Source of the DNA: a virus
Direction: 5' to 3' (one strand)
IMG/VR virus record: IMGVR_UViG_3300047362_000403
Span: 1 to 22,385 of that record
DNA length: 22,385 bases
The position numbers and the translations under genes are program-made. Positions 3,357 through 16,761 of the stretch are shown here, in pieces (the first letter of the stretch is position 1; each line of letters opens with the position of its first letter). Under the pieces are notes generated by a model. That model was not told where the DNA came from and ran no database searches. It worked only from the letters and a program-made list of their open reading frames with translations.

Positions 3357-3378
3357 AAGTATAAATAACTGTATACTT
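3357..3378. repeat. Inverted repeat within the divergent promoter region
   Basis: AAGTATA (3357-3363) is repeated inverted as TATACTT (3372-3378) with an 8-base spacer, exactly between two divergent transcription units. It overlaps the TATAAATA element. It may be an operator, or simply the result of two opposed AT-rich promoters. Confidence 0.5.
3360..3367 (+). promoter_or_regulatory. T4-type late promoter (exact TATAAATA)
   Basis: An exact TATAAATA octamer ends 31 bases before the ATG at 3399, in the right orientation for the 3399-5077 block. This is the sequence read by the phage-encoded late sigma (gp55 type) in T4. No -35 box is needed in that system. Confidence 0.65.
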
Positions 3379-5136: not shown

Positions 5137-5415
5137 ATGGATTTTTTACAGTTTGTATCAGAAGTCGGTTTTCCAGTCGCAGGGGCGATAGCGGCCGGCT
5201 TTTTTGTTTTTACTACACTAAAATTTATATTAAGCAGTGTAACTGGTAGCGTTAATGGACTTAAAGGCATCATTAATGCACTAGACAATCGTGTTCAAAC
5301 TATGAACAATGACTTAGTAAAAATTGATACACTTATGAGCTATGCCCTCGGCGTAAAACCTAATATAGACAGGTTAGCCGCTAATGAGGGGAAAGAAGAC
5401 GCAAGACGCGACTAA
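5137..5415 (+). CDS. Small membrane protein with coiled-coil tail (holin-like?)
   Basis: A 92-aa protein with one N-terminal hydrophobic helix (about residues 8-32, GFPVAGAIAAGFFVF), then an amphipathic helical stretch (NALDNRVQTMNNDLVKIDTL) likely to form a coiled coil, and a charged tail. The plan of short N-terminus, GFP, single helix and coiled coil resembles small phage membrane proteins of the YvrJ/BhlA kind sometimes called holin-like. The protein at 5814 is clearly related. Strong G-run ribosome site 5 bases before the ATG. It is the first gene of a block read from the AATAAATAC element. The function as a holin is only a guess. Confidence 0.6.
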   Translation: MDFLQFVSEVGFPVAGAIAAGFFVFTTLKFILSSVTGSVNGLKGIINALDNRVQTMNNDLVKIDTLMSYALGVKPNIDRLAANEGKEDARRD

Positions 5416-5639: not shown

Positions 5640-5842
5640 TGTGGTTAGATTATACTATAGACCAAGGACCTCACGGATTTACCGTAAGAGGTGATTGGCC
5701 TGGAGAAGTTATGGGCCTAGACCGTGAAGGTAATAAAGGCTCTAAATCAACACCGTTGTACCAACCTGGAGATGTATTCATTGTTAATGAACAAGGATGG
5801 TTAGTAAAACAGAATGACAGGGGAACTAGCGGCAGCGATTAA
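5636..5842 (+). CDS. Small PGD-F-VN-GWL protein, copy 2
   Basis: A 68-aa paralogue of the preceding protein. The two share the (Y/F)-(K/Q)-PGD-x-F-x-VN-x-x-GWL core but little outside it. A PGEVMGLDREG segment in the N-terminal half has no counterpart in copy 1. It starts with ATGATG inside the ATGA junction, and its last 29 bases overlap the start of the next gene. There is no signal peptide or membrane helix. The function is unknown. Confidence 0.55.
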   Translation: MMWLDYTIDQGPHGFTVRGDWPGEVMGLDREGNKGSKSTPLYQPGDVFIVNEQGWLVKQNDRGTSGSD

Positions 5843-6146
5843 AGATTTTGGATTTCCCATTGTTGCTGCGATGGGATTAGGTTACTTCGTTTACTATGTA
5901 TGGAAATGGGTGACCACCGAAATTAAACCAGTTGTTGGAGAGGCTAACGCTACTCTAATAGGATTGATTGATCGTATTAGAATGTTAGATAATGATCTAA
6001 TACGACTAACACAAAAACTTCAAATGGTTTTGGAGTTTAAAGAAGAGTATGAAAAAATGACAGGCAGGAAACTTGATATAGACTTAGATGATATTGAGAG
6101 TTTGAAGCAAGGGGGAAAAGATGCTAAAAGAAAGCAAGTGGAGTAA
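5814..6146 (+). CDS. Small membrane protein with coiled-coil tail, paralogue of 5137 protein
   Basis: A 110-aa protein with the same plan as the 92-aa protein at 5137: a hydrophobic helix (DFGFPIVAAMGLGYFVYYVWKW, about 11-32) followed by an amphipathic segment (LIDRIRMLDNDLIRLTQKLQ, about 49-68) and a charged C-terminus. Shared features are GFP(V/I), the G-(F/Y)-FV core and the M-x-NDL repeat in the coiled coil. The start at 5814 overlaps the previous gene by 29 bases with only a weak ribosome site. No later start is convincing because the GFP motif begins at once. The last 26 bases overlap the next small gene. It may form hetero-oligomers with the 5137 product. Confidence 0.55.
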   Translation: MTGELAAAIKDFGFPIVAAMGLGYFVYYVWKWVTTEIKPVVGEANATLIGLIDRIRMLDNDLIRLTQKLQMVLEFKEEYEKMTGRKLDIDLDDIESLKQGGKDAKRKQVE

Positions 6147-6279: not shown

Positions 6280-6481
6280 TTGGAATGATGATCACATGTT
6301 TACACCAGCACAGAAAATTTATTTCCTATTTTGTGGTATTGTAGTAGCATTATGTATTAGTTATGTTACATACCTAGCATATGACTACAGAATTGAAAAT
6401 AAATTTGTGGAAACTATTAGTCCTAAGGATTATTGGGCAGAAGTTCCTAAATGGGAATGGAAACCTGTGTTTACTTCGTAG
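6272..6481 (+). CDS. 69-aa membrane protein with TTG start
   Basis: The frame is open from a TTG at 6257, but the better start is the TTG at 6272, which lies 5 bases after GGGAGG and overlaps the previous stop by 8 bases. The resulting protein begins MDNWNDDHMFTPAQK. It has one membrane helix (about 17-38, YFLFCGIVVALCISYVTYLAY) and a Trp-rich C-terminal part (WAEVPKWEWKPVF). It ends the plus-strand block, and its last 11 bases overlap the end of the convergent adenylate cyclase gene. The function is unknown. Confidence 0.5.
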   Translation: MDNWNDDHMFTPAQKIYFLFCGIVVALCISYVTYLAYDYRIENKFVETISPKDYWAEVPKWEWKPVFTS

Positions 6482-8519
6482 TAGCGATAAACACACCGTT
6501 CCAATCTTCTGGTAAGTCTTGCGTTTTCATATATTCGCAACGCTCTATCCACATATCGTAGTAACCATTCATTCGGCCATCAAACTGTTTCTTGAGGTAA
6601 TTACATTCACTAATTGCTTCGTCAAAATTCTGTGCTCTGTATGCCTTATGCATACCATCGTGTCTCTTTCGTGCTTTTATATCTTTTTGTTTAACATCAT
6701 CTAGCACGGTATATATTCTAATACCTATTGTTTTGCCTTTAACAGCAAGTTCATCAATTTTAAGATAAAAGAAATCATCTTTGGTTACATCATATGTGTT
6801 TTCTCCTACTAGCAATACACAACCATACTCTTTACACTTGCTTTCTATTCTAGCGGCTGTACTTACAGCATCTCCCAATACATCATATGAATGCCTCTGG
6901 GTAGATCCCATTTCACCAAGATAACCGAGACCAGTATTAATACCAGCACCCATACCCACTGGAGGGCGTCCTTCTGCTGTAATTTTATCATTAAACTTCT
7001 CCACTGCTTTTAACATGTTCAGTCCACATTGAACTGCTGACTTAGGATGGTGTGGATCATCTATAGGTGCATTGTGTATGTGCATACTTGCATCACCTAT
7101 ATACTTGATAACCATACCATCTGAATCTAATATAGGCTGTGTAATTGCATCCATATAACCATTCATTATTTTAGTTAATCCTTTTACATCATCTCCGAAT
7201 GACTCACCGAGCGGAGTGAAGCCACGCAAATCACTAAAACAAATACTAACTTCGCGCTTCATGCCTTCTTTGATTAGTGCAGGATTTTCTTGTAGCATAC
7301 GCACGACTGTTGGTGATGCGTACCCAGCAAACTGTTTCTTAATCTCTTGTTTCTCTAAGAATTCCTTAATAAAGCGGTTGAATGTTGCGTGGAACCCAAC
7401 GAGTGTTAATGCTATTAACGGCATGCTTACATCAAGCAAATATAAGTGATTTTGCCATGCGTGTAATGCACCATAAGTTAATAAACCGCCAAATATTAGG
7501 AATGAGCCTCCTATAATCCAATATGGTGTAAGTCCGACTATAAGGATAATTGTTAACGAAACAAACACTGTTGCACCAATCTCTGCTAAGAAAGCCCAGA
7601 ATGGACGCTGTATTTGATCTCCATCTAATACTGTTTGTAATGTTACTGCACCCGGCATATAATTATATTGCGGGCCTTTAGGACTGGCTATAGTACCTCC
7701 TATGCCATCCGCTGTTATACCAAGTATAACTGTTTTACCTTCCAATGACCAGAATTGATCTTCATCAGCGGCACTAACTTCTGTGAACCACTTATTCCAA
7801 CGTAACCAAATTTGTCCGTTCGGGTCTGTACTAATAATCGGATAACCAGGTACTCTTACTTTTTCTACCCCACCATCGTTTGCTTTAATTTGGTAACTAG
7901 GTGCGCCTGTTGCTACACGAATAACTTCGATAGCAATACTAGGGTAGGTATCTTCTCCAACTCTCATAATGAGTGGAACTCTGCGTACAACACCATCAAT
8001 TTCTGGTGCTGTATTAAGTACGCCTACGCCTGATGCATTTTCTCCTAATAATGGTATAGGACCCAACATACCAGGCCATTCAAACAAGTACGGAAGTGGA
8101 TCTCCTATTTTTGCAACTCCGCGTGGTACTGCATTTTTATTTGCCTGTAAACTTCCTACTTGTGCTATAATAACACCGTTATCGAATACCGCATCTGCTA
8201 AGTATTTGTCACCACCAAGTCTGTCGTCCTCGCTGAACAATATAGGCAAAACGATAATACCCGCTCCGGCTTCTCGTAACTTCCAAATAATATTTGAAAG
8301 TACTTCTCTATTCCAGGGCCATTGTCCATATTTTTCTATGGCGGCTTCGTCAATTGTAACGACTGCTATATCTTTGCTTTGCACATATTCATCTTGTTGT
8401 TGTAACAAATCGAAACTTTTTAATCTGACTGTTTGTACTACAAAATTATCGCTATAGTGAAATGAAATTACAACTAATGCCGTAATCAAGGCGACTGCCC
8501 AATGTGCAAAATACTTCAT
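6471..8519 (-). CDS. CHASE2-domain class III adenylate cyclase
   Basis: A 682-aa membrane-bound cyclase predicted to make cAMP from ATP in response to a periplasmic signal. Order: an N-terminal membrane helix (5-22), a periplasmic CHASE2 domain (about 30-305, with IAVVTIDEAAIEKYGQWPWNR at 51-71), three membrane helices (about 309-380), a linker and a catalytic domain (about 420-605). Metal-binding Asp430 (FSDLRGFT) and Asp476 (KYIGD) are present, as are adenine-selecting Lys472 and Asp546 (SYDVLGD) and Arg557. The usual Asn of VNLAAR is Ser553 (VSTAAR). The C-terminus ends DWNGVF, as in cellular CHASE2 cyclases, so the gene is full length. It starts one base after the thermonuclease stop. A membrane signalling cyclase is odd in a phage, and the nearby FecR gene is its common bacterial neighbour. 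Confidence 0.9.
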   Translation of the reverse strand: MKYFAHWAVALITALVVISFHYSDNFVVQTVRLKSFDLLQQQDEYVQSKDIAVVTIDEAAIEKYGQWPWNREVLSNIIWKLREAGAGIIVLPILFSEDDRLGGDKYLADAVFDNGVIIAQVGSLQANKNAVPRGVAKIGDPLPYLFEWPGMLGPIPLLGENASGVGVLNTAPEIDGVVRRVPLIMRVGEDTYPSIAIEVIRVATGAPSYQIKANDGGVEKVRVPGYPIISTDPNGQIWLRWNKWFTEVSAADEDQFWSLEGKTVILGITADGIGGTIASPKGPQYNYMPGAVTLQTVLDGDQIQRPFWAFLAEIGATVFVSLTIILIVGLTPYWIIGGSFLIFGGLLTYGALHAWQNHLYLLDVSMPLIALTLVGFHATFNRFIKEFLEKQEIKKQFAGYASPTVVRMLQENPALIKEGMKREVSICFSDLRGFTPLGESFGDDVKGLTKIMNGYMDAITQPILDSDGMVIKYIGDASMHIHNAPIDDPHHPKSAVQCGLNMLKAVEKFNDKITAEGRPPVGMGAGINTGLGYLGEMGSTQRHSYDVLGDAVSTAARIESKCKEYGCVLLVGENTYDVTKDDFFYLKIDELAVKGKTIGIRIYTVLDDVKQKDIKARKRHDGMHKAYRAQNFDEAISECNYLKKQFDGRMNGYYDMWIERCEYMKTQDLPEDWNGVFIATTK

Positions 8520-9161: not shown

Positions 9162-9638
9162 TTACCACTTTCCTTGGCTTGCACCCGCTATATATATTAG
9201 CCCACCAAGGAGCCCGGCTCCTACTATTGCTAACAATACACCAACAATCCACGCTATTATTTGTTCTTTGCGTTCTTCTGCAGCATATATTGCTTCTCGT
9301 TGTTCCTTACGCATTTGAACTTCCATGCGTACGATTTCATCCCAAGCACTCGGTCCATAATAAAGACTGATATACTGTCGCATTTCCTCACGCATTTCTT
9401 TTGCTTTTTGTTTGTGTGCCCAAATTTCCATGGCGTTGGCTTCTATGCCTCCGCCTAATGCTTTATACCATTTAGGTTTTTCTGCTTTTTGATGTGCGTA
9501 GTCTAAATCACTAAGAGCCTTGCCCCACTGTCCTAGTTGTGAGTACATACTCTGGATATCTTTTCCAGTGTTAATTGCACTTTTAATACCATTGAAGGCA
9601 GCCGTGGCTGCACCGATAGCCGTTATTGGATCTATCAT
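9162..9638 (-). CDS. Conserved T4-like marine phage protein with C-terminal membrane helix
   Basis: A 158-aa protein starting MIDPITAIGAATAAFNGIKSA. This opening, the long helical middle (KQKAKEMREEMRQY, VQMRKEQREAIYAAEERKEQ) and the C-terminal membrane helix (about 127-151, IIAWIVGVLLAIVGAGLLGG) match, from memory, a hypothetical protein conserved in T4-like cyanophages and pelagiphages. No function is known to me; it could be a virion or lysis-associated membrane protein. The leader is strong: AAATAAATAC, then a run of six G 6 bases before the ATG, nearly identical to the leader of the 5137 gene. It is one of the better taxonomic markers in the window. Confidence 0.7.
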   Translation of the reverse strand: MIDPITAIGAATAAFNGIKSAINTGKDIQSMYSQLGQWGKALSDLDYAHQKAEKPKWYKALGGGIEANAMEIWAHKQKAKEMREEMRQYISLYYGPSAWDEIVRMEVQMRKEQREAIYAAEERKEQIIAWIVGVLLAIVGAGLLGGLIYIAGASQGKW

Positions 9639-9719: not shown

Positions 9720-10565
9720 TTATTGTTGTGTGACGGAAACTGAACACCCGCCCACTGTTACACAAGTTTGTGAAAGTGAATAACTCTTAGGTGTATTGCT
9801 GTGTTGCGTTACTGTTATGTCACTTGCATAAGTTCCGCTAGTTGCTATGTTCATACTATGCCCTGATGAACTGCCTGGATTATAGCCTTGGTCTAAATCA
9901 AATGTGCTATTGCTATTGTCTACGTCTAAGTTGATAGTATGTGTGCCGTGTCCGTTTTGTAATACATCTGCTGTAACATAATCAGCATCAATATCAACAT
10001 TCAATGTCTTACTAACGTCTGCTTGTTGTACAACGTCTACATCTGCATAATCACCATCTATTGCAATATTGCTTTCATGTCCATTGGGACCACTGCCCCA
10101 TGTTCCATTGTTACGTTGTGCTTGCCATACATTATTGTTGTCTCCTGTAATAGCAACGTTGGTTTCATGATTACCGTCTGCATAAGGATCATCATTTCCA
10201 GCATCATTTCTGTCTTGTAGGAGTGTTACTGTATTATCGTTGCCTGTTACGGTTAGATTGGCTGTGTTATCGCCACTGTTTCCGCTCAAAGAACCTTGTA
10301 ATACTTTTACAGTGTTGCCCGTTCCTGTTGAACAAACACTCATAGCATTGTTATCGTGCCATTGCTTCAGTGTTGCTGTAGTGCCATCTCCGTCAAAACA
10401 AGCGTCTGTTAAACTAGTGCCAATGGAGTTATTTTGACCATCTTGTACAACAGTCAAAGTTAGATCATCACCTATCTGATCAAGATATATATCATTAGCA
10501 AATGCACTATTGAATTTGAATAACATTAATGTCATTGCTACGGCCAGCACCCAGCGTATAGTCAT
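9720..10565 (-). CDS. Secreted curlin-like repeat protein 2
   Basis: A protein of about 281 aa with a signal peptide (MTIRWVLAVAMTLMLFKFNSAFA, cut before ND) and a mature part low in Lys/Arg and rich in Asn, Asp, Gly, Thr, Ser and Gln. The mature N-terminus NDIYLDQIGDDLTLTVVQDGQNN is a clear curlin-type Q-x-G-x-x-N repeat, and irregular repeats follow (TGNDNTVTLLQ, TGDNNNVWQAQ, DVDVVQQ, VTQHSN, SVSVTQQ). This is the composition and spacing of CsgA/CsgB amyloid subunits, though the repeats are more degenerate. It is a paralogue of the protein at 11637. The start could also be the TTG at 10574. Either way it overlaps the FecR gene by about 60 bases. It is expected to be exported through the CsgG pore encoded nearby and may form fibres; that role is inferred. 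Confidence 0.75.
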   Translation of the reverse strand: MTIRWVLAVAMTLMLFKFNSAFANDIYLDQIGDDLTLTVVQDGQNNSIGTSLTDACFDGDGTTATLKQWHDNNAMSVCSTGTGNTVKVLQGSLSGNSGDNTANLTVTGNDNTVTLLQDRNDAGNDDPYADGNHETNVAITGDNNNVWQAQRNNGTWGSGPNGHESNIAIDGDYADVDVVQQADVSKTLNVDIDADYVTADVLQNGHGTHTINLDVDNSNSTFDLDQGYNPGSSSGHSMNIATSGTYASDITVTQHSNTPKSYSLSQTCVTVGGCSVSVTQQ

Positions 10566-11637
10566 ATAACTCAAAGTCCCCTTGTTTTAATTGTATAGTG
10601 TAACTATTATCTCTAAACATCTTTAATCGTAGATAATTATTACCAGCGTTATCTTCTCTTATGAAAACCCATCTATCTCCTTGTTTATCTAAAAATATAC
10701 CAGTTGTGGCATCAAAACCGTATATATTTTTATCTTCTTGGAGTAATTCTCTATTTTGTCTAAATAATTCATCTTGGAAAAGAACTGCCAATGCAAGGTT
10801 AAGTTGGTCTAATATATCATATAACAAGTCTGCTAACAAATAATCTGTTTCATCTAATGCTGTTTTCCATATACCCTCAATAGATGATTCAAGAGAATCG
10901 TATGCTAATACATCTAACTCTAAAAAGTCAATGCCTAAAAAGTCTGCTAACTTACGCTTCTCAAGTTCTATTTCATCCTCTTCCTCATAGTAAGGATTCT
11001 TTTTACGCAATATAATTAAACCGTTAATTTGTTCTTCAGAAATATCTAATAATAAAGGAGGCGACGGAGGAGCCATACTATGTCTAGTTACTGTTGCTTG
11101 AAATGCCTGATTTAAAATAACTATACCAGCATCTGTCTCAACTTCAATTTCTCCTGTATAACACATTCCTGCTGTATTACAACTTGGTAATAGTGTAATC
11201 ATACTACCACCCATTTCATCTACAACCATGATGAAGTCAGTACCACGCACACCGATAGTTGCACTTGGTGTTCTAATTTTTACATTTTGTTTATAACGTT
11301 TGGCTATTTGCCCTGAAGCATATCTAACTGTACCTAATGATGCTTTTATACTTAGACTTCCTATATCATTTGCAGGATCGTATACAAATTCATCAATTAA
11401 TAGTCTACTATGTTCAGTTATATCAACACGGGTTTCGTCAACAAATTCTATACTCATCTTAGCACGAGCGGTAACCGCCGTGTCTTGCATAAGAACACTT
11501 AATCCGTTTGTTGCTTCTAGAGAATCTGAGCCGCGTTCTATGGCGCCGCTACCTTTAATTTTACCTATTTCACCTACTGAAGCCGCAATATTAGGACTGA
11601 ATAATACAATAGTTAAGGCAAATACAAAGCGTAACAT
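10507..11637 (-). CDS. FecR-domain periplasmic protein
   Basis: A 376-aa protein with an N-terminal signal peptide (about 1-19) and a FecR domain (about 25-185): VGEIGKIKGSGAIERG, then DTAVTARAKMSIEFVDETRVDI, SLGTVRYASGQ and the hallmark TPSATIGVRGTDF (123-135). The C-terminal half is acidic, unrecognised and probably helical. In bacteria FecR-domain proteins act in the periplasm as signal relays, and secreted FecR proteins are often encoded beside CHASE2 cyclases. Here the gene lies between two curlin-like genes: its ATG shares one base with the upstream curlin stop (TAATG), and its end overlaps the next curlin gene. It could monitor curlin export or act on the CHASE2 domain; both are inference. 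The domain call is confident. Confidence 0.85.
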   Translation of the reverse strand: MLRFVFALTIVLFSPNIAASVGEIGKIKGSGAIERGSDSLEATNGLSVLMQDTAVTARAKMSIEFVDETRVDITEHSRLLIDEFVYDPANDIGSLSIKASLGTVRYASGQIAKRYKQNVKIRTPSATIGVRGTDFIMVVDEMGGSMITLLPSCNTAGMCYTGEIEVETDAGIVILNQAFQATVTRHSMAPPSPPLLLDISEEQINGLIILRKKNPYYEEEDEIELEKRKLADFLGIDFLELDVLAYDSLESSIEGIWKTALDETDYLLADLLYDILDQLNLALAVLFQDELFRQNRELLQEDKNIYGFDATTGIFLDKQGDRWVFIREDNAGNNYLRLKMFRDNSYTIQLKQGDFELYDYTLGAGRSNDINVIQIQ

Positions 11638-12350
11638 TAATCGCTCTGTGTAATGTCTACATCAAAACTATCGCCATTAATTGTAAGGTCTACAGTATTA
11701 TCATAAATTCCAGATTGTGTTACGTCTACAGTGCCACCGCCACCGTCAATGTCTAGTGTAATACTGTGTCCACCGACGTCTCCGTCTCCGGACTGTGTGG
11801 TGGTCACTGTAACGCCTTCATCACTGTTAGCACTTGTAGTTGCTAAACTTGTGCTGTTGTTAATATCTACAGTTAGGCTTGCACTTTGACCATCAATGTC
11901 TGAGTTAATAATATTATTATCACCCGTTACTGTGAAAGATACTGTGGAGGAATCTGCATCACTTGTTTCACCGATGTCAAAGTCGAAGGTGTTATCATCA
12001 CCTGTAGTTGTAATATTTAAAGTAACTGTATCACAATTTCCTGTCGCTGTACTTGAACACAATAAATCAACTGTGTTAGTATCACCAGTAAAGGTCCAAG
12101 TACCAGTGTAAGTAGCACCTTTAATAACAGCGGCAATATCATTGTTATCACCTGTTTGTGTAATGGAAAAAGTCATGTCATCGCCAGTTAGCGTGACGTC
12201 TGTGGTTGAATCACCAACTTGGTTGTTTTGTCCATCTTGTACAATGTCCAAATCTAAACCATCGCCTATTTGATTTATATAAATGTCGTTTGCAAGAGCA
12301 TTTGTGCTTAAGAAAGCCATAGCCGCAACGAACCAAACGTAATATTTCAT
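11637..12350 (-). CDS. Secreted curlin-like repeat protein 1
   Basis: A protein of about 237 aa. The frame opens at a GTG (12365), but the ATG at 12350, 8 bases after GGGGG, gives a clean signal peptide (MKYYVWFVAAMAFLSTNALA, cut before ND). The mature start NDIYINQIGDGLDLDIVQDGQNNQVG matches the other curlin-like protein almost residue for residue. Later repeats are degenerate: TFSITQTGDNNDIA, TGDNNIINSDID, TTTQSGDGD, VDVTQSGIYDN, FDVDITQSD. The mature part is rich in Thr, Asp, Gly, Ser and Asn and almost free of Lys/Arg, as expected of a CsgA/CsgB-like amyloid subunit. It is first in a three-gene unit with FecR and curlin 2. Two late-promoter-like elements lie upstream. Confidence 0.78.
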   Translation of the reverse strand: MKYYVWFVAAMAFLSTNALANDIYINQIGDGLDLDIVQDGQNNQVGDSTTDVTLTGDDMTFSITQTGDNNDIAAVIKGATYTGTWTFTGDTNTVDLLCSSTATGNCDTVTLNITTTGDDNTFDFDIGETSDADSSTVSFTVTGDNNIINSDIDGQSASLTVDINNSTSLATTSANSDEGVTVTTTQSGDGDVGGHSITLDIDGGGGTVDVTQSGIYDNTVDLTINGDSFDVDITQSD

Positions 12351-12369
12351 CAGATAATCCCCCACATCT

Positions 12370-12378
12370 GTATTTACT
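12370..12378 (-). promoter_or_regulatory. Late-promoter-like element AGTAAATAC, proximal, for curlin operon
   Basis: On the minus strand AGTAAATAC is 20 bases before the ATG at 12350 and is followed by a GGGGG ribosome site. It is a weaker match (GTAAATA) than the distal CATAAATAC element at 12444-12452. Confidence 0.45.
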
Positions 12379-12443
12379 AATAGTTGACCGTTTTCCTAGG
12401 TTATTCTAAATAAAAAACCATAATGGTAAATATTAATACTAAA

Positions 12444-12452
12444 GTATTTATG
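12444..12452 (-). promoter_or_regulatory. Late-promoter-like element CATAAATAC, distal, for curlin operon
   Basis: On the minus strand the element CATAAATAC matches the ATAAATAC core exactly. It would give a leader of about 85 bases on the curlin-FecR-curlin transcript. It overlaps the inverted repeat AATACT-AA-AGTATT. Confidence 0.45.
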
Positions 12453-12456
12453 CTAG

Positions 12457-12474
12457 GTGTAAAAATATTTACAC
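12457..12474. promoter_or_regulatory. Perfect inverted repeat, possible operator
   Basis: GTGTAAA-AATA-TTTACAC, a perfect 7-bp inverted repeat with an AT-rich centre, lies in the 167-base region between the divergent curlin operon and Fis-like gene. An AATACT/AGTATT repeat (around 12435-12448) and ACCAT/ATGGT (around 12417-12427) are close by. Symmetric AT-rich sites with G and C at the ends are in keeping with Fis-type binding, though it is not an exact Fis consensus. Confidence 0.45.
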
Positions 12475-12504
12475 TATTGTTTTTAAAGTATAGTTTTTGA
12501 GCAA

Positions 12505-12512
12505 GATAAATA
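12505..12512 (+). promoter_or_regulatory. Late-promoter-like GATAAATA directly before the Fis-like start codon
   Basis: GATAAATA ends 5 bases before the ATG at 12518. With T4 late-promoter spacing (core at about -13 to -6), transcription would begin at or next to the A of the ATG, giving a leaderless mRNA. No Shine-Dalgarno sequence is visible before this ATG. Confidence 0.4.
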
Positions 12513-12517
12513 TTATT

Positions 12518-12748
12518 ATGGGTACTAAAGAAGAACAAATATATTTCTATAACATGTTTGATGAAATGTGGCCAAAGGATCATGTAGATGAAATTGACCT
12601 TGCCAAAGAAGTTGAAGATTTAGAGAAAAATAAAATTGAGATTGCTATGAAAGCATGTAGTATGAATCAAACAAGAGCAGCCAAAAAACTTGGTCTTGGG
12701 CGTACTAATTTAATTGCTAAACTTAAGAAATATAAAATTATTTTTTAG
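12518..12748 (+). CDS. Fis-like DNA-binding regulator (HTH_8)
   Basis: A 76-aa protein from the ATG at 12518 (the frame also opens at a TTG, 12497). The C-terminal 40 residues match the Fis/NtrC helix-turn-helix: LEKNKIEIAMKACSMNQTRAAKKLGLGRTNLIAKLKKYKI, with the A-A-x-x-L-G-(L/I)-x-R-x-x-L-x-x-K-L-K-K signature. The N-terminal part is acidic and unlike the Fis beta-hairpin. It is the only plus-strand gene in the curli block, divergent from the curlin operon and convergent with csgG (4-base overlap of ends). This suggests a local regulator of the block binding the inverted repeats before it. It could also mimic host Fis more widely. The family call is strong, the target is inferred. Confidence 0.8.
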   Translation: MGTKEEQIYFYNMFDEMWPKDHVDEIDLAKEVEDLEKNKIEIAMKACSMNQTRAAKKLGLGRTNLIAKLKKYKIIF

Positions 12749-13569
12749 TTTTCTTTGTTAGTTTTAAATTTCCAAAGTTCATTACGCTCGCCCTCTTTGA
12801 CAAGTTCTAACACACCTTGTTCGATAGCGGCTCTCACTGCATAGTTTACAGGTTCATTTATACTAAAGCCAGTTTCTGCTTCAAGTAATTTTGTTCCTAA
12901 ATCCAAAAACTTAAACACATCTGCTCCGCTTCTGGAACTAGCAATTGTTTTTTCTGTTGCTACAGTAAGCAACACTTTTCCTGTACTAACACTCACCAAT
13001 CTCATTACAACTGTTACTGTGTCAATACGATATTCTGCTTGTGATCCTAATCCAAGATAACGAGCACCTACGCCGCCTGTTGCTACATTACTATCATAAC
13101 CAACAATACCACCTTCTAATATTAAGCCAGCAAATCGCATAGGTTTTAACGGCTGTGGACCTTTAGGTAATTCTTTTTCATATACTTCTCTGGTGTTTCG
13201 TATTAGTTGGCGCTCTTTAATAAGATGATCCATACCACCGCGCTCTAATACCTCAAACCAAGTACTGTTTCCTATTTCTGAAAGTGCTTTGATTACCCAT
13301 ACTTCACTACCTTGTGTTACTGCACTAGATAGATTAGCAATATTATCTGCAGGCTTACGTTGACCTGTCATATCTTGAAATTTATAAACAGCAATGGATA
13401 TTTTCTTACCATCTAACTCTGGAAACTTTATTAACTGTTCAGCAAGCGGTGCTGGCTGTATACGAGGAGTATTCTTCGCATCATTAAAAGTTTCAATAGC
13501 CTGTTTACCGGTTGTTGCTACACACCCTGATAACATTACACTGGCGATTACCAATGGTATAATTTTCAT
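12745..13569 (-). CDS. csgG: CsgG-like curli secretion lipoprotein
   Basis: A 274-aa protein with a lipoprotein signal (LSGC, Cys16) and strong similarity along its length to CsgG, the nine-fold outer-membrane pore that exports curlins: AVYKFQDMTGQRKP (60-73), WFEVLERGGMDHLIKERQ (104-121), a match to E. coli WFIPLERQGLQNLLNERK, GLILEGGIVGYDSNVATGGVGARYLG (148-173) and INEPVNYAVRAAIEQGV (237-253). The pore-constriction region reads KPADNIANLSSAV, where E. coli has KPYPASNFSTAV: Asn is kept (Asn79), but the aromatic Tyr and Phe are replaced (Ala/Asp and Leu80) and one residue is added. It follows csgF directly (TAATG junction). Expected in the host outer membrane. It could export the two curlin-like proteins or help open the envelope. 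Confidence 0.92.
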   Translation of the reverse strand: MKIIPLVIASVMLSGCVATTGKQAIETFNDAKNTPRIQPAPLAEQLIKFPELDGKKISIAVYKFQDMTGQRKPADNIANLSSAVTQGSEVWVIKALSEIGNSTWFEVLERGGMDHLIKERQLIRNTREVYEKELPKGPQPLKPMRFAGLILEGGIVGYDSNVATGGVGARYLGLGSQAEYRIDTVTVVMRLVSVSTGKVLLTVATEKTIASSRSGADVFKFLDLGTKLLEAETGFSINEPVNYAVRAAIEQGVLELVKEGERNELWKFKTNKEN

Positions 13570-14042
13570 TAAAAGTTGAACTCCCCGGCACCTGGAATAG
13601 TAATAGTGGTGGTTGATCCATCATCTGCAACTATTTCTAACGTAATACTTTCTGTTACCGGATCTTTTGTCCAAGTAATTGTGGAACCTTCAATCTCTGC
13701 GGTTCCTGAACTAGGACAAGTTGTACCACTTGTATCAGTACATGTCGCAAACATACTATCCACCATCTGTTTAGATAGTGTAGCGTATATTCTTGATTCA
13801 ATATTTTTAATAAACTTGTTAAGTGTAGAATTTTCTAACTCGCGTTCCAAGCGTTCCGCTTCTGCACGAGCTTCATCTTTAATGTCCTGCCTTCTATTAA
13901 ACTGTAGTTGTTCTACACTTAATACATGACTACTGTAACCGTTGCCATAATGGAAGGCAGGACTCTTAAAGGAATGTGTTAGTTCACTAGCGTATGAACT
14001 ACCTCCTATCATTGTTAATAAAACTAAAAACATTAGGCGCAT
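13569..14042 (-). CDS. csgF: CsgF-like curli assembly factor
   Basis: A 157-aa protein with a signal peptide (about 1-18, ending SSYAS). The mature N-terminus ELTHSFKSPAFHYGNGYSS matches the CsgF segment (T-x-x-F-x-(N/S)-P-x-F-G) that inserts into the CsgG channel. Next comes a charged helical linker (EARAEAERLERELENS), a LNKFIKNIESRIYATL segment similar to the CsgF middle, and a C-terminal beta region (ITWTKDPVTESITLEIVADDGSTTTITIPG) resembling the E. coli tail. It is about 20 residues longer than E. coli CsgF and has two extra Cys (CTDTSGTTC). It is first in a csgF-csgG pair, the order of many phage and bacterial versions being variable. GGGGG ribosome site and an ACTAAATAC element upstream. 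Confident. Confidence 0.85.
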   Translation of the reverse strand: MRLMFLVLLTMIGGSSYASELTHSFKSPAFHYGNGYSSHVLSVEQLQFNRRQDIKDEARAEAERLERELENSTLNKFIKNIESRIYATLSKQMVDSMFATCTDTSGTTCPSSGTAEIEGSTITWTKDPVTESITLEIVADDGSTTTITIPGAGEFNF

Positions 14043-14075
14043 AATTTAATTCCCCCGATAATTGTGCATTATAAT

Positions 14076-14084
14076 GTATTTAGT
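14076..14084 (-). promoter_or_regulatory. Late-promoter-like element ACTAAATAC for csgF-csgG
   Basis: On the minus strand ACTAAATAC lies about 33 bases before the ATG at 14042, followed by GGGGG at 14052-14056. It sits in the 50-base gap after tctA. It is a slightly degenerate copy (CTAAATA) of the ATAAATA core. Confidence 0.45.
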
Positions 14085-14092
14085 TAATCTTA

Positions 14093-15658
14093 TTATGCAT
14101 AGTCCATTGTACGAGATTTATTAAAGAATCCATACAAAAGAAGTAGGATTCCAATTACTATACATATAGCCAACGCTGGGTGTTGAATAAACGTAGGATT
14201 ATTGAATATATAGTTTGTGCTTAATAAACTAAAGTCTCCATTTAGTGCCGCTGATACTGACTGTATATCATCATAAAAGAACACATTAGATAACTGTAAG
14301 TAGGATCCTTCAATGCGTGGGAATAAAATATAAGCCATAAGTAATGCAGGTCTACTAAACTTGCCATACTTACATACCATACCAATGATACCGAACACCA
14401 CTAGCATAGTTAAATCTTCCCATACACTTGCATAGAATCTACTTGCAAGAACAGCCCAGATTGTTAACGCCAACATTGGGGGAATCCAATAATATGGGTT
14501 GATATAAACAATCTTACAACACCATCTCGCAAATACTAACATTAGAACACCTGCAAAGAATGTTCCTAACATATAACCACCCAGTAAACTATTCATAAAC
14601 TGCGTATCATCCATGATGAATGGACTACCAACTTCAAAACCTATATAAAGCCATAAGGCCATAAGTAATGCAAACACTTTGCCGCCTGGAATACCAAACA
14701 TAATAGTAGGCAATAAGCCTCCCATCTTGCCAGCGTTGTTAGCACCTTCAGGACCGATAACACCTTTGATGTTTCCAGTACCAAACTTGACTTTTTCTTT
14801 TTTGTTAAGTGCAACTGTGGCACTATAACTTGTCCAGTCACCAATACCGCCACCAGTACCAGGAAGAATGCCTACAACAAAACCAATACACCCACCCATA
14901 AAGGCTAGGTACTTGTGTTTCCAGACAGCAAGAATGCCGTCCCAAGTTTGTTTATTGTGTTCCTTACGTGAAATTCTTGCAACTTCATACTTGGTTGTCA
15001 ACGCTTCCCATAATTCTGGAAGAGCAAACAAACCTGCCGCAACAATAACAACTGGTACACCATCTTCTAAATAGGCCCAGCCGCCTGTATTTCTGACTTC
15101 GCCCATCATGCCATAACCAATGCTACCAAAGAACAAACCTATACCAATAGCACAAAGGCTACGAGCTGTGTTCTTAGTAGTAACAACTGATATTAGACAG
15201 AATGCTACAATAATAAGTCCTGCTATTTCTGGAACACCAACATAATCCGCTATTGCTCCATAAAAAGGAATAATAGCCATACCTAATGCACCAAATAATA
15301 AACCATTAATCGTGCTTACTGTAATTGCAGAACTAAGAGCGTAACTTGCCTTACCCTGCTTTGCCAGTGGAAATCCATCTACCATTGTACTTGCCGCTCC
15401 TGATGCTCCTGGTATTCCCAAGAGTACACTCGCAAAACTATCACCAATAGTACATGATACCATTGTTGCAATAGAAAACATTACAAACAGATAATTACCG
15501 CCCGCAAAATCAAAGCTCTGTACAATAACAAAGAGCATAATGATTGCTTTACCAGGGCCTGCACTAGGAATTAACCCAATTAGGCCCCCATAAAGAATAC
15601 CGGCAGTGAGCATTAACGCCCACTGCACGGCAACTGGATATGTAAGAATCCACTCCAT
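14093..15658 (-). CDS. tctA: TctA-family large permease of a tripartite tricarboxylate transporter
   Basis: A 521-aa polytopic membrane protein (about 11-12 hydrophobic segments), of normal length for TctA (about 500). Family signatures are clear: GGLIGLIPSAGPGKAI near the N-terminus, GDSFASVLLGIPGASGAAST, and the central VGILPGTGGGIGDWTSYSATV followed by FGTGNIKGVIGPEGANNAGKMGGLLPTIMFGIPGG. TctA forms the inner-membrane channel that works with the periplasmic TctC receptor and the small TctB subunit to import carboxylates using ion gradients. Here tctC lies 2 bases upstream and no tctB is present. Complete and without visible damage, so probably functional. Phage carriage suggests steering host carbon uptake; the substrate cannot be read. 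Confidence 0.9.
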   Translation of the reverse strand: MEWILTYPVAVQWALMLTAGILYGGLIGLIPSAGPGKAIIMLFVIVQSFDFAGGNYLFVMFSIATMVSCTIGDSFASVLLGIPGASGAASTMVDGFPLAKQGKASYALSSAITVSTINGLLFGALGMAIIPFYGAIADYVGVPEIAGLIIVAFCLISVVTTKNTARSLCAIGIGLFFGSIGYGMMGEVRNTGGWAYLEDGVPVVIVAAGLFALPELWEALTTKYEVARISRKEHNKQTWDGILAVWKHKYLAFMGGCIGFVVGILPGTGGGIGDWTSYSATVALNKKEKVKFGTGNIKGVIGPEGANNAGKMGGLLPTIMFGIPGGKVFALLMALWLYIGFEVGSPFIMDDTQFMNSLLGGYMLGTFFAGVLMLVFARWCCKIVYINPYYWIPPMLALTIWAVLASRFYASVWEDLTMLVVFGIIGMVCKYGKFSRPALLMAYILFPRIEGSYLQLSNVFFYDDIQSVSAALNGDFSLLSTNYIFNNPTFIQHPALAICIVIGILLLLYGFFNKSRTMDYA

Positions 15659-15660
15659 TT

Positions 15661-16761
15661 TTACTTGAGTAGTTCTTCTTTAACGAACGCATCCTGATAC
15701 TTAAACAAGTCGTTAGCAAGTACAACTAGAGTTTCAAGATTTTGTCTGTTAATTAGCGAGAACAAGTAGTCACTGTGTGCAATAACTTCATCACCTGATA
15801 ACCAAGGGAAAGCACCTAGTTTCTTATCCAAACGAGCCATTACTTCTGGATCATTTAACATTTCTGCCACTGCGGCATCAATGTCTGCTTTGAAAGGAGA
15901 GTTAGGAGCAATCCAAATTGTCTTTTGGAAACCATCTCTGTAACCTTGGAATGTTACATATGCTTCGTAAACTGGACCGCTTGGCTTTACACCGTATTCT
16001 GCTTCATAAACTTCTGGGAAGGACTGTGCGCCTTCTGGTGCATTTGGATCACCGTAAACAGAACCTTTACCGTCTACAATACCGTGTGCAAACCATACAC
16101 GACTTTTTCCTGACTCATACTCTTTAGCATAACCCATTAAAGAAGTCTGTGGGGTATCACGTGTTGCGTCTAACTGTCCTCTACGGAATGCTTGGCGCTT
16201 CTCGCCGCCTGAGTTAAATCCTGGGATAAAACGTAGTTTTTCGTTTGTACATGCTAGGAATGATTCAACTGTTGCATTTTTCTCTGGACCACAAATCATT
16301 AGTCCTACTGCAACGATGTCAGCCGCAAAGCCTGTACCGCCTGTTGCTGGAAACTTAACTACGTCATTTCTCCAGTCAACGTCTGAGTTAATTGAAACCC
16401 AAATGTTAGTATTCATCACAACTACTGGATCGTAGTTACGATAATCAAAACCACCTACGTCTTCTAGTAGGAAGCCTTCACCATTACCGCCGTGTGCAAT
16501 CATTAGTGTTGTTGGGCGATCCTGATATGAACCAGCATAGTCTTTAAGTGACTTCTTGCCTCGTTGACCTGGAAGGTAACGTGGAACAATGTTGTGTCCA
16601 TATTTTTCGAGCTTACCATTGAGCTCTTTCATTACATTGTCACCCCAGAATGCCGTACCTCCTTTACCTGGACCGTTCGGAAACTGAAGTTCGAAAGTTT
16701 CTGCTACTGCTGAAGTAGCCATCATCGTGGCGACTGCCACAATCGATAGTAGTTTTTTCAT
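15661..16761 (-). CDS. tctC: TctC-like periplasmic solute-binding protein of the TTT system
   Basis: A 366-aa protein with a Sec signal peptide (MKKLLSIVAVATMMATSAVA, cut before ET). It has a mature domain of the Bug/TctC kind: LQFPNGPGKGGTAFWGDNV near the start (the P-x-G-x-G-x-D-type opening loop in variant form), a PATGGTGFAADIVAVGLM segment and RGQLDATRDTPQTS in place of the usual G-E-(V/L)-D loop. It is somewhat longer than typical TctC proteins (about 300-330 aa), so it belongs to a divergent subgroup. It is transcribed just ahead of tctA. ACGGAG ribosome site; a 156-base leader with two hairpins lies upstream. It would capture a carboxylate-type ligand in the host periplasm; ligand unknown. 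Confidence 0.8.
   Translation of the reverse strand: MKKLLSIVAVATMMATSAVAETFELQFPNGPGKGGTAFWGDNVMKELNGKLEKYGHNIVPRYLPGQRGKKSLKDYAGSYQDRPTTLMIAHGGNGEGFLLEDVGGFDYRNYDPVVVMNTNIWVSINSDVDWRNDVVKFPATGGTGFAADIVAVGLMICGPEKNATVESFLACTNEKLRFIPGFNSGGEKRQAFRRGQLDATRDTPQTSLMGYAKEYESGKSRVWFAHGIVDGKGSVYGDPNAPEGAQSFPEVYEAEYGVKPSGPVYEAYVTFQGYRDGFQKTIWIAPNSPFKADIDAAVAEMLNDPEVMARLDKKLGAFPWLSGDEVIAHSDYLFSLINRQNLETLVVLANDLFKYQDAFVKEELLK

Follow-up and report, generated by a model that had tools for sequence, protein, structure and literature searches.

We analysed a stretch of DNA from a marine virus of bacteria (IMG/VR virus record IMGVR_UViG_3300047362_000403, complete at 22,385 bases and henceforth referred to as the window) that carries a curli-type, i.e., type VIII, secretion module. 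An earlier note on this DNA, made from the sequence alone, had described a block consisting of csgF, csgG, two curlin-like repeat proteins, a FecR-domain protein and a Fis-like regulator. Family searches and the list of open reading frames (ORFs) placed all six genes at or near the positions given there (Table 1), but the block had been drawn too short: the module extends past it to include a nucleotide cyclase with a CHASE2 domain, two small membrane proteins (o92 and o109) and a further membrane protein of 158 residues. The reported lack of csgC, csgE and csgD was borne out, as none of these models was found among the window proteins scanned (a subset of the ORFs). Throughout this study, signal peptides and membrane segments were judged by eye from the sequence. 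The CsgG and CsgF matches, together with the curlin family repeats described below, support the note's view of a virus-encoded curli-type system with its own putative curlins.

We investigated how consistently these genes occur together by searching viral contigs with CsgG. This returned 58 loci, which are not independent of one another and form 34 clusters (CsgG less than 97% identical). Both csgF and at least one curlin were present in all 34 clusters, so that the co-occurrence proposed as a check in the earlier note was found; FecR was present in 31, the cyclase, o92 and o109 in 30 each, and the Fis-like gene in 7, with part of the absences explained by contig ends. A second search was seeded with o92; it found at least 594 relatives, from which we used the best 80. 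Of these 80 loci, 72 had a gene for curli, FecR or the cyclase and 77 had o109, and all 27 loci of 15 kb or more had a gene for curli, FecR or the cyclase. Specifically, 24 of these 27 contained csgF or csgG, the remaining three being L250, L263 and L279; in L279, a curlin and a cyclase were matched.

The same association was found in phage genome records. CsgG was matched in 16 of 50,697 records, and relatives of FecR and o92 were confined to the same 6 of them (HTVC008M, 2 records; Melnitz, 4 records), the very records whose CsgG genes come closest. The 10 other records, with CsgG at 25–40% identity, had neither a FecR nor an o92 relative. The cultured phages HTVC008M and Melnitz carry the complete gene set of the module. 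Four viral contigs with the module (L010, L133, L257 and L261) measure 203 to 358 kb, which exceeds the size of HTVC008M and Melnitz.

Table 1. Positions of the genes and other features of the curli module and its neighbours in the window.
Feature	Position	Strand	Match or remark
o92, small membrane protein	5137-5415	+	phrog_18771, 9.8e-30
o109, small membrane protein, o92 paralog	5814-6146	+	phrog_18771, 3.6e-30
CHASE2 + class III nucleotide cyclase	6471-8519	-	PF05226, 2.1e-37; PF00211, 8.9e-17
158-residue recurrent membrane protein, function unassigned	9162-9638	-	phrog_32327, 1e-17
Curlin 2, C-terminal Cys pair, terminal VSVTQQ	9720-10574	-	overlaps the end of the FecR gene
Curlin-like C-terminal strand(s) of the FecR protein, Yx5Q ... 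Nx5Q	10510-10602	-	
Secreted FecR-domain protein	10507-11637	-	PF04773, 1.2e-8
Curlin 1, signal-peptide-like start, predicted beta-helix	11637-12350	-	ATG at 12350 after GGGGGA
Fis-type helix-turn-helix protein (HTH_8)	12497-12748	+	PF02954, 7.2e-12
csgG, outer-membrane secretion pore	12745-13569	-	PF03783, 1.7e-48
csgF	13569-14042	-	PF10614, 8.9e-12 (exceeds cut-off); in 58/58 loci found with CsgG
TctA transporter, neighbour, probably outside the module	14093-15658	-	PF01970, 6.5e-77
TctC-like binding protein, neighbour	15661-16761	-	name suggested by position beside tctA; no Pfam family at 0.1

The secretion pore itself was readily recognised: the csgG family profile matched Escherichia coli CsgG structures at 4.8e-68, and Cys16, which belongs to a lipoprotein-type start, was invariant in 22 aligned viral copies. 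The aromatic residues that form the constriction of the E. coli pore (Tyr51 and Phe56) were not kept, and all 22 aligned viral proteins have Leu at the Phe56 site.

As the earlier note had stated, curlin 1 and curlin 2 begin alike in their mature form (NDIYxxQIGDxLxL); both also terminate in a V/I-x-V/I-x-Q strand. The curlin repeat search proposed in that note recognised the repeat through the curlin 1 family. Taken singly, curlin 1 (PF07012, 0.013–0.027) and curlin 2 (CsgB model, 0.095) fell short of the cut-off, but at the family level 20 of 23 curlin 1 members, including that of the window, matched PF07012 at E ≤ 0.1 (best 6.2e-10). The model of curlin 1, the one curlin that was folded, was all-beta with 17 strands (pLDDT 80.8, pTM 0.78). 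Foldseek returned no match at E < 0.1 for this model, and a second look with VIA at 133 Foldseek matches gave Z-scores of 10.6–17.2 among the 50 listed, with beta-helix chains foremost. The predicted beta-helix, which agrees with the beta-solenoid anticipated in the note, is thus a claim from the model and this second look; solved curli structures were absent from the list of matches, which excludes nothing. Curlin 2 was a separate ORF in 41 of the 58 loci (counts of curlin 2 take in 14 loci where one ORF matched both curlins), and its C-terminal Cys pair was common to the curlin 2 sequences listed and also present in a cellular curlin beside CsgG (L100). In three loci (L036, L048 and L053), curlin 2 had an additional N-terminal part of about 250 residues.

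The FecR protein provides a possible link between the curlins and the rest of the module. In the structure model it consists of a signal-peptide-like start, a periplasmic FecR domain, helices, a C-terminal beta module and a tail of low confidence. The FecR domain has the fold of the anti-sigma regulator PupR (6ovk_R, Z 15.5), and mature residues 1–93 resemble a domain by which an antifreeze protein is anchored to the cell surface (5ix9, Z 10.3; sequence E 0.49). Two sequence matches of the C-terminus to the PDB (E 0.17–0.18) were judged to be due to chance. The fold match to PupR is what speaks for the proposal, offered in PMC9599517, of FecR as an iron-responsive regulator in a module linked to iron uptake. 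By contrast, neither a cytoplasmic anti-sigma part nor an inner-membrane segment was found (by eye and in the model) in the FecR protein, whose signal-peptide-like stretch passes directly into the FecR part; the window proteins that were scanned included no recognisable receptor or sigma factor; and FecR relatives in cells and in other phages, described below, are often large proteins beside CHASE2 cyclases or resemble adhesins. We therefore set the iron regulator aside, the anti-sigma part being absent, and regard it as the least credible of the explanations considered here.

Curlin repeats follow an N-x5-Q spacing rule, and the C-terminus of FecR has the same spacing, with Tyr346, Gln352, Gly363 and Gln374 invariant across 22 aligned copies. 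A motif describing this tail ([NSDE]x[IV]x[IV]xQ) was present in 36 of 36 distinct, uncut FecR copies, compared with 2 of 519 other ORFs of at least 150 amino acids from the same loci. With a looser motif and a wider set, the tail was found in 82 of 85 distinct viral FecR copies in CsgG loci, while the three copies without it (L266, L269 and L270) have a longer curlin-like repeat at their end; it was also present in a short locus without CsgG (L254). Since the copies are related, these counts are not independent trials. The profile of the FecR tail aligned end to end with the end of curlin 1 (P = 0.0015; two controls, 0.74 and 0.5; reversed, 0.23).

A different version of the module was found in L250, one of the o92 loci without curli genes. 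There (L250:10533-19946), the CHASE2 cyclase, o109 and o92 adjoin a set of type I secretion genes consisting of TolC (1.3e-28), HlyD (1.1e-48), the membrane part of an LssB-type permease (6.9e-21 over positions 140–304 of the 696 in the profile; the protein is without the ATPase part) and a protein of 1299 residues that combines FecR and cadherin domains. A search with the L250 TolC returned no match in the 50,697 phage records and 13 loci among viral contigs (L319–L331; L319 is the same contig as L250, and the TolC proteins of L320 and L321 are identical). The permease, HlyD and CHASE2 cyclase were present in 13 of 13 loci and o92 with o109 in 12, the exception being L331, which lacks both despite 6 kb of sequence beyond its cyclase. 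The FecR-cadherin adhesin was found in 7; the other six contigs begin at most 1.0 kb from TolC, two of them (L326 and L327) with about 1 kb on the adhesin side and no adhesin match. Two of the type I virus contigs are 138 and 148 kb long. We then compared the two versions across 15 records, which may include fragments: 5 had the type I genes without CsgG, 9 had curli genes without that TolC and one (L263) had neither, and each of the 15 contained exactly one class III cyclase. None of the five type I FecR adhesins has the curlin-like tail.

L263 contains o92, o109 and the CHASE2 cyclase (positions 10001-14221) with neither the curli nor the type I set, and a 278-residue protein without a Pfam match lies between o92 and o109.

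The pairing of FecR with a CHASE2 cyclase is also found in cells. We surveyed 289 genomes from the class of the Rhodobacteraceae metagenome-assembled genome (MAG) G001, which we took to be Alphaproteobacteria, and found FecR-profile matches (E ≤ 1e-10) in 99 and cyclase matches (E ≤ 1e-30) in 132. Among 148 FecR and 148 cyclase matches listed, FecR lay within 5 kb of 25 of the cyclases (in 25 genomes), compared with about 0.7 expected under random placement in genomes assumed to be 4 Mb in size; G001, which includes four contigs with viral-type curli genes, was left out of this count. In many cases the cellular relatives of the viral FecR are large FecR proteins encoded next to CHASE2 cyclases, and among the matches listed only the phage contigs in G001 matched the FecR profile over its full length. 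The genes for FecR and CHASE2 cyclases are thus neighbours in alphaproteobacteria without curli. From 21 FecR ORFs beside cellular cyclases, 5 of which ran off the stretch, we tested the remaining 16 for the tail and found it in none. Given that the FecR–cyclase pair exists without curli, the viral FecR would appear to have gained its curlin-like end. In a quick, unrooted tree of the cyclases, the curli-phage proteins (with that of L263), the type I proteins and the cellular proteins formed three separate groups.

These observations bear on a simpler explanation, in which FecR is a structural nucleator or anchor only (CsgB-like, or a retention plug) and the cyclase is an unlinked neighbour. 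While both the curlin-like tail and the resemblance of mature residues 1–93 to the anchoring domain would suit such a role, the cyclase accompanies FecR proteins in both kinds of phage, curli and type I, as well as in some of the cells, and occurs exactly once in each of the 15 records. We thus consider a purely structural FecR unlikely, though worth weighing.

The two small membrane proteins are less easily placed. By eye, o92 has a hydrophobic start (GFPxxG..) followed by a coiled-coil-like part. We found no match to HisKA/HATPase or any other kinase family in 23 o92/o109 proteins at E ≤ 0.1; judging by its position ahead of CsgF, the short "histidine kinase" of PMC9599517 is probably o92/o109. 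In the same set, 12 of 23 weakly matched the holin family phrog_4898 at E ≤ 0.1 (best 2.6e-4) and one matched Pfam YvrJ, at 0.06. The holin matches are relevant to a proposal made for the phage Melnitz (PMC9004378), according to which CsgGF would be a gated pore that times lysis in the manner of a pinholin, with the curlins vestigial or acting as plugs; outer-membrane damage for lysis was also among the roles suggested in the earlier note. The lack of conservation of the constriction residues in viral CsgG agrees with such a pore. Nevertheless, the clusters retain a curlin in 34 of 34 cases and FecR in 31, the record of Melnitz has annotations for two curlin repeat proteins as well as for a FecR protein even though the corresponding paper, in the text available, says that csgA and csgB are lacking, and the same cyclase and small proteins occur with the TolC/HlyD/adhesin set in the five records tested that have no CsgG. 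A pore for lysis or uptake could hardly be swapped for a TolC/HlyD/adhesin set, which argues for the display of an adhesive protein at the surface as what both versions have in common; this swap weakens the lysis proposal, and we consider the lysis-pore role improbable and less likely than display.

The Fis-like gene of the window runs antiparallel to csgG, overlapping its end, and is divergent from curlin 1. Searching with its family returned 70 viral loci, 51 of which contained csgF or csgG; in all 51 the Fis-like gene was on the opposite strand within 400 bases of one of the two, and it preceded csgF in some of them and in others stood between csgG and curlin 1, the arrangement of the window. 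The remaining 19 had neither gene in the stretch covered, several of them having the 158-residue membrane protein, a type found in 14 of the 58 CsgG loci and in 41 of the 70 Fis loci. The divergent layout suggests that, in the loci that have it, the Fis-like protein may be a regulator of the curlin promoter. Late expression, which the earlier note had assumed, found no backing in promoter sequences: we rejected T4-type late promoters, since the window contains a single TATAAATA (4.3 expected), which lies at 3360 and away from the module. Promoter-like matches numbered 51, close to the 41.5 in shuffled sequence, and terminator-like matches 12 (5.9 shuffled), and no Rfam family was found in the window at gathering score.

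On its other side the module adjoins tctA and the putative tctC. The order tctC-tctA-Fis-csgF recurs in four loci (L222, L226, L227 and L229, from 17 viral tctA loci), and FecR, the cyclase and o92/o109 recur with csgG, so we rejected the possibility that the window is a chimera. A tctA domain has also been described in a SUP05 phage contig (PMC4164917). The neighbouring tricarboxylate-type transporter and the lack of a CsgE gate among the window proteins scanned would fit the suggestion, made in PMC7029224 and PMC9599517, that CsgGF is an open pore for taking up large nutrients or cofactors, with the curlins secondary. This leaves unexplained the conservation of the curlins and of the FecR tail as well as the adhesin-export alternative, and tctA lies beside curli in just those 4 of 17 loci (several of which end shortly past tctA); we therefore think an uptake pore very unlikely.

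We also set aside a cellular source of the whole module, as a scan of cellular genomes returned only 7 loci, three of which resemble phage contigs inside MAGs. Phage-like curli contigs binned in bacterial MAGs comprise L062–L064 and the four contigs in G001, and such contigs are a trap for claims of bacterial curli in these taxa.

Considering this, our best reading is that infected cells would display adhesive amyloid and that FecR and the cyclase would report the state of that amyloid. The gene set, its conservation, the predicted curlin 1 beta-helix, the FecR fold and tail, the cellular linkage and the type I alternative were computed or read from sequence, and the mechanism built on them is stated conditionally. 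Exported via CsgG/CsgF, the curlins would assemble into amyloid at the surface of the infected cell. The FecR protein would remain in the periplasm, where its C-terminal curlin-like strand would bind curlin or the fibre while its FecR domain touches the periplasmic CHASE2 domain; the cyclase would then alter cAMP depending on whether fibre is being made or held. The proteins o92 and o109 may be cyclase helpers or holin-like pores, and the Fis-like protein a possible regulator of the curlin promoter. The fibre might serve to coat the host, to capture new hosts or siblings, to keep out other phages, or some further purpose. That the module is a phage type VIII secretion system coupled in this way to an envelope cyclase sensor is, in our judgement, an evenly balanced proposition.

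A broader and more tentative reading, which is possible but which we would not presently favour, is that of an exchangeable cassette in marine phages, where one envelope-sensing core (the CHASE2 cyclase, the FecR-domain secreted protein and the two small membrane proteins) goes with either curli or a type I adhesin. The virus would dress the infected cell with one adhesive surface structure or the other, and FecR would report through cAMP that the structure has been built or contact made, timing late infection; in the curli version, the reporting FecR would be the one bearing a curlin-like tail.

Several observations weigh against our best reading. The window cyclase keeps the motifs FSD, KYIGD, YDVLGD and AAR, in which we assume the two metal-binding Asp, the adenine-type Lys and Asp and the transition-state Arg to lie, but the presumed transition-state Asn is replaced by Ser, which makes its activity uncertain. 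At this catalytic position curli-phage cyclases have Ser in 19 of 24 cases and Asn in 2 (3 unmatched), while HTVC008M still has the Asn, as do all 9 type I phages and, among 24 cellular cyclases, 22 (2 not matched). The window has no known cAMP target. Solved counterparts of the FecR C-terminal module reached Z-scores of at most 5.9, none of them clear, the last 8 residues of FecR are of low confidence in the model, and the hhalign probability of the alignment between tail and curlin 1 is just 17%. Fragments among the 15 records would reduce the force of the exclusivity count. At three alphaproteobacterial and three gammaproteobacterial loci with cellular CsgG (16–21 kb each), we found no FecR or cyclase match. 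Finally, clumping was not seen in Melnitz-infected cultures according to the available text of PMC9004378.

The module itself is already published. A curli cluster of unclear function was reported in pelagimyophages (PMC7029224), as the earlier note had said, and PMC9599517 describes, in podo- and myophages, the order CsgF, CsgG, CsgA/B, FecR, second CsgA/B and adenylate cyclase together with the short "histidine kinase". In the portions available, the latter paper terms this organisation alphaproteobacterial, without CsgC, CsgD and CsgE, and puts forward three hypotheses, namely sibling capture, defence against superinfection, and uptake. Since FecR, both curlins and the adenylate cyclase belong to the module known from pelagimyophages and pelagipodophages, neither the central finding nor the pairing with FecR is new; as for the pairing with Fis, which the note had also thought possibly new, no Fis gene is named in the main text of PMC9599517, which also has no mention of a holin, TolC, HlyD, adhesin or CHASE domain. 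New here are the extension of the module past the block of the note to the CHASE2 cyclase and the two small membrane paralogs, the curlin-like tail of FecR, the recurrence of the Fis-like gene antiparallel to the module, the cellular FecR–CHASE2 linkage and the type I alternative; we met no earlier report of the type I set or the Fis findings in the open-access part of the literature in PMC.

Phage curli have been puzzling since 2020, with proposed roles ranging from sibling capture to a lysis pore, and the finding that in other viruses the same sensing core goes with a secretion set unrelated to curli points to adhesive surface display as the function that the two share. The FecR tail and the FecR–CHASE2 pair offer a concrete, testable link from fibre to signal. 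In alphaproteobacteria, the linkage of FecR with CHASE2 suggests that cells have a signalling pair for surface proteins that has received little study.

Compared with known systems, the window has the same genes in the same order as the published pelagiphage type VIII module (PMC9599517; PMC7029224), in the available descriptions of which the FecR tail, the Fis-like gene, the CHASE2 domain, the cellular linkage and the type I alternative do not appear. With the FecR/PupR anti-sigma regulators the window FecR shares the periplasmic FecR-type fold, but it is a secreted protein that lacks the anti-sigma domain and has an additional C-terminal module. LapA-type adhesins are type I secreted and have a periplasmic retention domain; the window FecR resembles them through its N-terminal residues, which are similar to 5ix9, and the type I phages through their LssB-type permease part, HlyD, TolC and FecR-cadherin protein. 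It differs from them in that it is short and reads as Sec-secreted, as do the type I phages in that their permease protein is without the ATPase part. Finally, the window shares CsgG and CsgF homologs and curlin-type substrates with the csgBAC/csgDEFG system of E. coli, but CsgE, CsgC and CsgD were not seen, and FecR, the CHASE2 cyclase and o92/o109 are added to the shared set.

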